From contig NZ_JAHWCI010000008.1 in assembly GCF_019550915.1 (NCBI RefSeq), forward strand, positions 682,001-746,000: a stretch of 64,000 nucleotides of DNA, given 5' to 3'. How positions within the stretch are numbered: the stretch's first letter is position 1; every line of letters starts with the position of its first letter. The stretch comes from Mumia sp. zg.B17. Lineage in GTDB: Bacteria; Actinomycetota; Actinomycetes; Propionibacteriales; Nocardioidaceae. Positions 54,321-55,768 of the stretch are shown here, piece by piece. The notes under the pieces are model-generated. The model did no database searches and had not been told where the DNA came from. It worked only from the letters and a program-made list of their open reading frames with translations. A program made the translations under genes and the position numbers.

Positions 54321-55424
54321 CTAGGCCCCGGATGCTGCCCGCCGCGTCGCCGAGGCGCGCGCGAGCTCCTCGAGCAGGTCGGCGGTGACGTCCCAGCCGA
54401 TGCAGGCGTCGGTCACGCTCTGCCCGTACGTCAGGTCTGCCGGCGCGGGCGCCTGCTTGCCGGGGACCAGGAAGCTCTCGAGCATCACGCCGCCGATCCC
54501 GCGGTCCCCACCGGCGACGTCACCGGCCAGCTCGCGGACGACGGCAGCCTGGCGGACGTGGTCCTTGCCGGAGTTGCCGTGGCTGGCGTCTACGACGAGG
54601 CGCGCCGGCATCCCGCCGCGCTCGAGCAGCCCGAGCGCGGACCGCCGAGACTCCACACCATAGTTGGGGCCGGCGTGCCCGCCGCGCAGGATCACGTGGC
54701 AGTCGGGGTTGCCGCTCGTGGAGACGGCGCACGCCCGACCGTCCGCGTCGATCCCGAAGAACGTCTGTTCCGCGCCCGCCGCCCGGCAGCCGTCGATCGC
54801 CGCCTGGACCGAGCCGTCCGTGGCGTTCTTGAAGCCGACGGGCATGGACAGGCCCGACACGAGCTGCCGGTGCACCTGGCTCTCCGGCGTACGGGCGCCG
54901 ATGGCACCCCAGGAGACGGCGTCGGCGAGGTACTGCGGGCTGGTCGGCTCGAGCAGCTCGGTGCCCGCAGGCAGGCCGGTCGCGAGCACGTCGAGCAGCA
55001 CCGAGCGGGCGAGCCGCAGGCCACGGCGGACGTCGTACGACTCGTCCATCCCCGGATCGTTGATGAGGCCCTTCCACCCCACGGTCGTGCGGGGCTTCTC
55101 GAAGTAGACCCGCATGACGATCTCCAGGTCGCCGGCGTAGGCCTCCCGCAGGGGTGCGAGCCGGTGGGCGTAGTCGAGCGCCGCGCTCGGGTCGTGGATG
55201 GAGCACGGCCCGACGACGACGAGGAGACGGTCGTCCTCGCCGGACATGATGGCGGCCGCCGCGTCGCGCGACCGCGCGACCAGGTCGGCGGCGGCATCAC
55301 CGAGCGGGCGGGCCGCGACGACGTCGCGGGGGCGCTCGAGAGGCTCGAGGGCACGCACGCGGAGGTCGCTCGTCGGCGTGCGGCCGGGGGTGGGGGTCGT
55401 ACGGGCCGGGGCTGAGCTGGACAT
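54321..55424 (-). CDS. aroG: 3-deoxy-7-phosphoheptulonate (DAHP) synthase, type I AroFGH
   Basis: A 367-residue type I DAHP synthase, first enzyme of the shikimate pathway, condensing PEP and erythrose 4-phosphate. LLVVVGPCSIHDP, MRVYFEKPRTTVGWKGLINDP, GARTPESQVHRQLVSGLSMPVGFKN, VILRGGHAGPNY and LVVDASHGNSGKD are the family blocks with metal and PEP ligands. ATG 55424 has AGAGGAAG in front; an in-frame extension to 55574 would cross the terminator hairpin and looks non-protein. Many actinobacteria rely on type II enzymes, so this may be the amino-acid-regulated isoenzyme; the leader suggests attenuation. Confidence 0.92.
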   Translation of the reverse strand: MSSSAPARTTPTPGRTPTSDLRVRALEPLERPRDVVAARPLGDAAADLVARSRDAAAAIMSGEDDRLLVVVGPCSIHDPSAALDYAHRLAPLREAYAGDLEIVMRVYFEKPRTTVGWKGLINDPGMDESYDVRRGLRLARSVLLDVLATGLPAGTELLEPTSPQYLADAVSWGAIGARTPESQVHRQLVSGLSMPVGFKNATDGSVQAAIDGCRAAGAEQTFFGIDADGRACAVSTSGNPDCHVILRGGHAGPNYGVESRRSALGLLERGGMPARLVVDASHGNSGKDHVRQAAVVRELAGDVAGGDRGIGGVMLESFLVPGKQAPAPADLTYGQSVTDACIGWDVTADLLEELARASATRRAASGA

Positions 55425-55479
55425 CGGCACTTCCTCTCGGCGGCACCGGTCCTGCGCCGGCACCGCCACGAATGACGAA

Positions 55480-55505
55480 AGGCACGGACCGTGTGGTCCG
55501 TGCCT
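55480..55505 (-). terminator. Leader terminator (attenuator candidate) upstream of aroG
   Basis: Perfect 11-bp stem (arms 55480-55490 and 55495-55505) around a four-base loop, followed on the minus strand by TTTCGTCATT. It lies 56 bases before the aroG start and 28 bases after the leader-peptide stop, the layout of a transcription attenuator. An earlier stem GGTCGG (55541-55546) / CCGACC (55524-55529) spans the leader stop and could serve as the upstream switch helix. Confidence 0.65.
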
Positions 55506-55533
55506 GTGCTGGCTTGCTGAGCGGGTCGGTGGG

Positions 55534-55593
55534 TCAGGCGCCGACCGCTGGCTGCACCAGCACGTCGCGCCCATAAAATCGCCCGCTCAACAT
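55534..55593 (-). CDS. Candidate leader peptide of aroG (19 residues, Phe-Tyr)
   Basis: ATG 55593 to TGA encodes MLSGRFYGRDVLVQPAVGA. The adjacent Phe-Tyr pair uses TTT and TAT, both rare in a genome that otherwise prefers TTC and TAC, just where ribosome stalling would matter. No Shine-Dalgarno is evident; TACTCT (55601-55606) seven bases upstream might act as a leaderless -10, or the peptide is made from the longer transcript from 55714-55686. The peptide is too short for homology to prove. Confidence 0.5.
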   Translation of the reverse strand: MLSGRFYGRDVLVQPAVGA

Positions 55594-55685
55594 GGGGCAG
55601 AGAGTAGCACCTGGGGTGGTGCTGGCATGGGAAGACCCCAGCCGCTGCTGACGGGGGATACAGTAGCGACCGGGGTCTAAGGAAG

Positions 55686-55714
55686 ACTGTAGGGCATCCT
55701 GAACGGGCGTTCAA
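55686..55714 (-). promoter_or_regulatory. Promoter of the aroG leader with palindrome in the spacer
   Basis: On the minus strand TTGAAC (55714-55709), 17-base spacer, TACAGT (55691-55686): a near-ideal sigma70 promoter. TGAACG-GG-CGTTCA (55700-55713) overlaps the -35 and spacer and looks like a repressor site. The predicted leader is about 255 bases and starts with an AGACCCC/GGGGTCT stem (55672-55678 with 55633-55639). Together with the leader ORF and terminator this accounts for the 344-base gene-free stretch 55425-55768. Confidence 0.6.
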
Positions 55715-55768
55715 GTCCTCCGTCCGATGACCTGGATCACCTGCTCGGAGAGCCTTCTCGACCGGGCA

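Follow-up and report, generated by a model that had tools for sequence, protein, structure and literature searches.

The question raised by this locus is how expression of aroG, a gene for DAHP synthase, is controlled in Mumia sp. zg.B17. Within the 64,000-nucleotide stretch of DNA analyzed here (i.e., the window), aroG lies on the minus strand (54321-55424; all features below are on this strand), and its naming as a DAHP synthase gene in a preliminary description, made from the sequence of the window by itself, was borne out by a class I match (TIGR00034, E 1.9e-140) and by 86-89% identity in four sister species. From comparative analysis and folding models, we consider it quite probable that the DNA upstream encodes a ribosome-mediated transcription attenuator by which expression of class I DAHP synthase would respond to charged tRNA-Phe and tRNA-Tyr.

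Read on the minus strand, the locus consists of a promoter-like element (P1), a strong hairpin, a second promoter-like element (P2), the leader ORF, the putative terminator hairpin with its tail, a further hairpin (H5), the Shine-Dalgarno-like GAGAGGAAG, and aroG. The leader ORF (55593-55534) encodes the 19-residue peptide MLSGRFYGRDVLVQPAVGA, and the adjacent Phe and Tyr codons that had been pointed out are indeed present, as TTT-TAT at codons 6 and 7. The extended -10 element TGCTACTCT (P2; 55601-55609) precedes the leader ATG by 7 nt, a box spacing found in 5/5 genus genomes. The 11-bp terminator with a T-rich tail that had been noticed before aroG could likewise be confirmed, as a perfect hairpin with the loop ACAC (T; 55480-55505; -22.1 kcal/mol) that is conserved and covaries class-wide, followed by the tail TTTCGTCATT (55471-55480; 6 T of 10 nt), which recurs in closely similar form in many further genera of the class. 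Two helices are predicted to compete for the leader RNA, namely (i) hairpin H1 (GGCGCGACGTGCTGG...CCAGCGGTCGGCGCC; 55537-55571; -24.5 kcal/mol including two flanking bases) and (ii) an antiterminator helix, suggested by the class-wide helix alignment and the folding model, between GTGCTGGT (55556-55563), within the leader ORF, and GCCAGCAC (55506-55513), 0-1 nt from T. A stem proposed to span the stop codon of the leader occurs in the minimum-energy fold of the window, but its outer arm, judged by eye, is poorly kept in sister species. Between T and aroG, H5 (GGCGGTGCC/GGTGCCGCC; 55439-55467) has, by eye in the alignment, a conserved stem and a variable loop in 5/5 species, and GAGAGGAAG (55430-55438) is conserved in 5/5 genus genomes. 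Also by eye, part of the H5 region could alternatively pair with the 3' strand of the antiterminator in relatives.

In the mechanism that we propose, transcription from P2 would begin at the leader ATG, as the spacing of the -10 element suggests, and ribosomes would load onto the leaderless mRNA. If Phe and Tyr are plentiful, the ribosome would reach the stop codon while the antiterminator strand is held in H1 or lies under the ribosome, the terminator would form, and transcription would stop 5' of aroG. When charged tRNA-Phe or tRNA-Tyr is scarce, the ribosome would stall at TTT-TAT and block H1; GTGCTGGT would then pair with GCCAGCAC, forming a helix immediately next to the terminator, and RNA polymerase would continue into aroG. 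The abutting helix may hinder closing of the terminator at the RNA exit channel, by either a steric or a kinetic effect.

The single sequence provides modest evidence for this mechanism, since a consensus promoter and terminator scan of the window reported neither P1 nor the terminator (0 and 0), and it is the comparative evidence that decides. The terminator tail is only moderately T-rich; the 236-nt leader folds more stably than 200/200 shuffled versions (z -4.84), and seven ORFs of the window together use TTT 3, TTC 49, TAT 8, and TAC 40 times. At curated thresholds, Rfam 15 yielded two tRNAs only in the window and no match at 20 loci; weak matches to sot2652, mir-56, and Glutamine-II fell far below thresholds, and identity with an Rfam family or riboswitch was rejected.

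Within the genus, class I aroG is present in five of six genomes, and in the family as a whole it was found in 6/120 sampled genomes, five of them from the genus, a patchy distribution that suggests gain by transfer or repeated loss. The preliminary description had named conservation of the Phe-Tyr codons and of the terminator as the check to be made; both are kept in 5/5 aroG-bearing genomes of the genus. The peptide SGRFYG[RH]DVLV[QK]PAVG is near letter-identical in all five, as are the terminator hairpin and tail, with one loop base differing in one species, and the variable parts are the leader's end and the DNA from the upstream hairpin to P2. In the genus alignment, H1 shows one compensated pair, in species G003. 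The genome to which the window belongs also encodes a class II DAHP synthase, upstream of which (locus L087) no leader peptide was seen by eye; there, a GTG start stands close behind a TACCCT box.

Beyond the genus, 79 of 393 sampled genomes of the class match AroG; removal of two with partial matches (G188 and G443) and addition of three genus members gave 80 genomes. An aromatic leader ORF lies upstream of class I aroG in 54 of these (seven recognized by eye without a regex pick, three via a corrected ORF) and 26 are without one; by family, the leader was found in 0/23 genomes of family f18 and in 54/57 elsewhere. Examples include RWYWRF..APGGAG, RRYPYFAQAPGGAG, YWRFIEAPGGA, RWYAYF.LALEGP, and YFWFSRPAPGG. 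Dinucleotide shuffles matched the leader regex in 48 of 800 cases; two regex matches (G474 and G187), whose frame runs in without a stop from the border of the stretch read, were excluded as tails of upstream coding sequences, as were three others (G233, G310, and G334). All 54 leaders have a TANNNT box 6-8 nt before an in-frame start (51 by script, three after ORF correction), a count that choice among in-frame starts inflates somewhat; as background, 78 of 1359 ATG or GTG triplets in the same upstream DNA, true sites included, have TANNNT 5-9 nt before them. Because of this spacing, the leader mRNA is probably leaderless, with transcription starting at the leader ATG. The leaders spell 53 of 60 Phe codons as TTT and 69 of 73 Tyr codons as TAT, whereas 23 aroG ORFs (6/29 were skipped) use TTT for 6 of 192 and TAT for 2 of 131; the contrast is extreme, but relatedness inflates its p-values. 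The designation of TTT and TAT as rare codons thus agrees with their avoidance in aroG and their use in leaders. As a separate observation, six loci that we call Rhodococcus/Nocardia-type by likeness to named loci (L152, L153, L155, L157, L158, and L160) have a leader rich in Y/F/W and, in place of the terminator, a GAGCCGG/CCGGCTC hairpin with no T-run, which perhaps points to another output mechanism.

An alignment (A2) of 29 of the 54 leaders, from which 17 near-duplicates, the six Rhodococcus-type rows, and rows G209 and G301 were left out, contains a long-range helix that pairs the leader coding region with a segment 3' of the stop codon. Helix and terminator together are paired in 84.4% of cells, a measure in which derivation of the structure from these same sequences favors it over slid versions. 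They show 64 double-changed cells, versus a mean of 17.9 in shuffled alignments and a maximum of 21 in slid versions, and a covariation score of 0.256, versus 0.092 shuffled and at most 0.090 slid, with the columns of T off by one in three rows (G216, G289, and G407). The helix of the window occupies these shared columns (42-47 paired with 115-120) and extends outward to 40-122, its inner part being absent; on this alignment, the putative antiterminator of the window is a diverged copy of the class-wide helix. No double changes were found for H1 across the class alignment, and T with its tail is retained in most rows. The gap between helix and terminator, measured from the outermost paired column with mismatches allowed, is 0-3 nt in 28/29 rows and 9 nt in the remaining row. 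A second register of the window, CGUGCUGGUGC/GCACAGGCACG, which overlaps T, equals the favored register with flanks in duplex energy (-14.6 for both); it is not favored, and no class-wide counterpart was found by eye. Taken together, conservation, covariation, and class-wide leaders make a chance origin of the feature very unlikely.

In 26/29 rows, the Tyr codon, which is the most constant codon class-wide, stands 17 nt 5' of the first G of the helix, an invariant base. In the E. coli trp leader, the stall codon stands about 17 nt before the antiterminator strand, as here. With the E. coli trp and pheA leaders, the window element further shares a short ORF with codons for the end products, competing helices, and an intrinsic terminator; it differs from them in its predicted leaderless start and in an antiterminator that abuts the terminator without sharing its 5' arm. 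The match to classical attenuators that had been proposed thus stands for order and spacing but not for the antiterminator, which does not overlap the terminator.

A folding model in which the transcript was cut before the 3' arm of the terminator gave, for the window helix, a pairing probability of 0.00 without a ribosome, 0.96 with a ribosome at Phe6, and 0.67 with a ribosome at Tyr7. For the five species of the genus, the corresponding values were 0.00, 0.69-0.98, and 0.00-0.74; a stall at Tyr gives little pairing in two of them (0.00 in G003 and 0.13 in G005). With the ribosome at the stop codon, pairing in the window was 0.46, or 0.00 when upstream RNA was treated as unavailable. Modeled folding in the genus is thus broadly that expected of the switch. 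That mainly one amino acid is sensed (i.e., Phe only, as for C. glutamicum, or Tyr, rather than both) is an alternative that we take seriously, at a probability somewhat below even: modeled pairing is higher at Phe6 than at Tyr7 in 5/5 species, C. glutamicum aroF is raised by Phe limitation and unaffected by Tyr (PMC11802643), and the class-wide constancy of the Tyr codon would fit a Tyr sensor, whereas the Phe and Tyr codons are both invariant in the genus and both take the rare spelling. We continue to favor sensing of both charged tRNAs.

Outside the genus, 16 of 24 species reach an antiterminator pairing probability >0.5 with no ribosome in the model, and placing a stalled ribosome at the last Phe codon reduces the value to <=0.25 in 22/23. 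At equilibrium, antiterminator and terminator coexist (mean probabilities of 0.98 and 0.99; 24 rows, five left out), and the 5' arm of the terminator is sequestered to a mean of 0.37 in the stalled state versus 0.54 without a ribosome (54 rows). The textbook scheme of antitermination, with this arm sequestered upon stalling, was therefore rejected, as stalling does not increase its sequestration; the antiterminator lies beside the terminator and does not overlap it. How a helix beside, rather than within, a terminator could stop termination is a physical question that these leaders pose. The coexistence of the two structures, along with the conserved H5 downstream of T and the Rhodococcus/Nocardia-type relatives that retain a leader with no T-rich terminator seen by eye, would also fit a leader that acts mainly via aroG translation, mRNA stability, or Rho-dependent termination, with T as one part only. 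We regard this as unlikely, given that most class rows retain both T and its tail, that relatives in another family show clear T-runs (TTTTTGTTTC), and that the Shine-Dalgarno sequence stays free of H5; transcription attenuation at T remains our preferred reading.

Neshat et al. reportedly described, in 2014, AroR as a leader/attenuator of aroF in C. glutamicum. The same assignment, with aroF as a DAHP synthase gene, is given in PMC11802643 and in the available portions of PMC4046766 and PMC7356990. In a Corynebacterium-like genus, 32 of 121 genomes match AroG, and 27 of the 30 loci examined carry R-F-Y-F leaders, each with a TANNNT box 6-8 nt before a start, in calls that allowed TTG starts and preferred starts with this spacing. 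A covariance model (R1), whose input rows cover the genus of the window but none of the Corynebacterium-like loci, matches 22 of these 30 loci at E <=0.1, 12 of them below 1e-3. One locus (L284) shares 22 contiguous nt with the published aroR primer of C. glutamicum and a fragment of the aroF-start primer is absent from all 30, which identifies L284 as C. glutamicum or a near relative. Because of the R-F-Y-F leaders and the R1 matches, the predicted window element is, by sequence, an attenuator of the AroR kind, diverged and in another lineage. It resembles AroR in its DAHP synthase target, the R-F-Y core of its leader, a start 6-8 nt after TANNNT, and a hairpin before the gene, but in its peptide F-Y-F is missing the last Phe, its antiterminator helix is displaced outward, and it belongs to another family of the class. 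The trp, ilvB, and leu leader attenuators of actinobacteria come from the same phylum, and several are reported as leaderless (PMC1262725, PMC8079986, and PMC5784534, as far as their available portions go; for several actinobacterial leaders, specifically PMC8079986), although the amino acids differ. A 2005 survey, in its available portion, reports no conserved RNA structure 5' of Phe or Tyr operons (PMC1262725), and the leader lists for S. lividans and C. diphtheriae, in the available portions of PMC8079986 and PMC5784534, name no DAHP synthase leader. In the literature searched, whose coverage leaves out most subscription journals, we found no report of such a leader outside Corynebacterium. 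What is new here, for a well-supported putative attenuator, is that it spreads across the class, that it is probably leaderless, and that its helix abuts the terminator.

R1 hits 65 of the 393 class genomes, and at E <1e-5 it matches 15 of 37 named or control loci, all 15 just 5' of actinobacterial aroG. Another 22 hits lie away from class I aroG; 16 of these stretches were read and nine proteins were scanned. Five of the proteins have a chorismate mutase domain (CM_2) fused to a DAHP-synthase-like domain, the latter as a partial DAHP_synth_1 match that is below the Pfam cut-off in two (L193, L196, L200, L201, and L203), and three have CM_2 alone (L202, L204, and L208); the same type of attenuator is predicted before all eight. 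At L198 (G447:C21), a hit whose leader has one Tyr (VLTRRVYPNGSG...) lies 5' of a gene for tyrosyl-tRNA synthetase; the aroG version is present in this genome as well. By their domain matches, nine of nine scanned R1 targets belong to aromatic amino acid metabolism. Four f18 stretches (L194, L195, L197, and L199) resemble the fusion type by inspection, without a protein scan. Three hits with E of 0.001-0.01 (L205-L207, in G469, G069, and G284) look false and have no aromatic leader. A regulator known from one industrial genus would thus be present in numerous families of the class. The analysis provides an RNA model for searching and adds target genes to those known, and so predicts where tRNA charging controls the shikimate pathway. 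It is possible, if rather doubtful as a joint reading, that there is a class-wide actinobacterial family of leaderless attenuators of aromatic amino acid genes that blocks termination by abutment, via a covarying helix 0-3 nt from the terminator, and that has class I DAHP synthase, DAHP-synthase-like/chorismate mutase fusions, chorismate mutase, and tyrosyl-tRNA synthetase as its targets.

Finally, the promoter named in the preliminary description requires reassignment. The consensus promoter TTGAAC-17-TACAGT (P1; 55686-55714) is present and largely conserved in the genus, but it is weak and scan-negative, and most likely it is the promoter of a separate hairpin element rather than of the aroG leader, which has its own TGCTACTCT box. 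This element (55633-55679) is a hairpin of very high stability whose C-rich loop is conserved (TATCCCCCGT in the window); its stem covaries, and UCCCCCGUC is invariant in 10 aligned rows. We assign P1 to it because the element occurs without aroG and widely beside genes for DUF5926 proteins: the same hairpin, with two mismatches in the loop-and-stem pattern, is found in the genus member without class I aroG, and its own model (R2) detects it in 149/393 genomes and 62/137 genera, with up to four copies per genome. At 27 of the 30 best R2 loci, the strand of the element also carries a DUF5926 (PF19348) relative, which in 24 of these 27 ends no more than about 150 nt away from the element; the window shows this arrangement too. 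Transcripts from P1 could run on into the leader. Because the minus strand carries two further likely transcription units shortly before the leader, T might be a plain terminator of DUF5926 or hairpin element transcripts, with the leader ORF incidental. We consider this highly improbable, as conservation across families extends to the leader codons, the start spacing, and the antiterminator, and the upstream stretches read in those families show no hairpin element. Attenuation of aroG by the leader thus remains the preferred reading of T, and the hairpin element may be a widespread small RNA or 5' element. Rfam gave no match to it in the window or at seven other loci; Streptomyces small RNAs with C-rich loops are known, according to the available portion of PMC3765725. 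On the 5' side of P1, GTGATCCAGGTCAT occupies 55727-55740, where sister species read GTGA-N6-TCAC. The sequence is similar to sites of the CRP/GlxR type.
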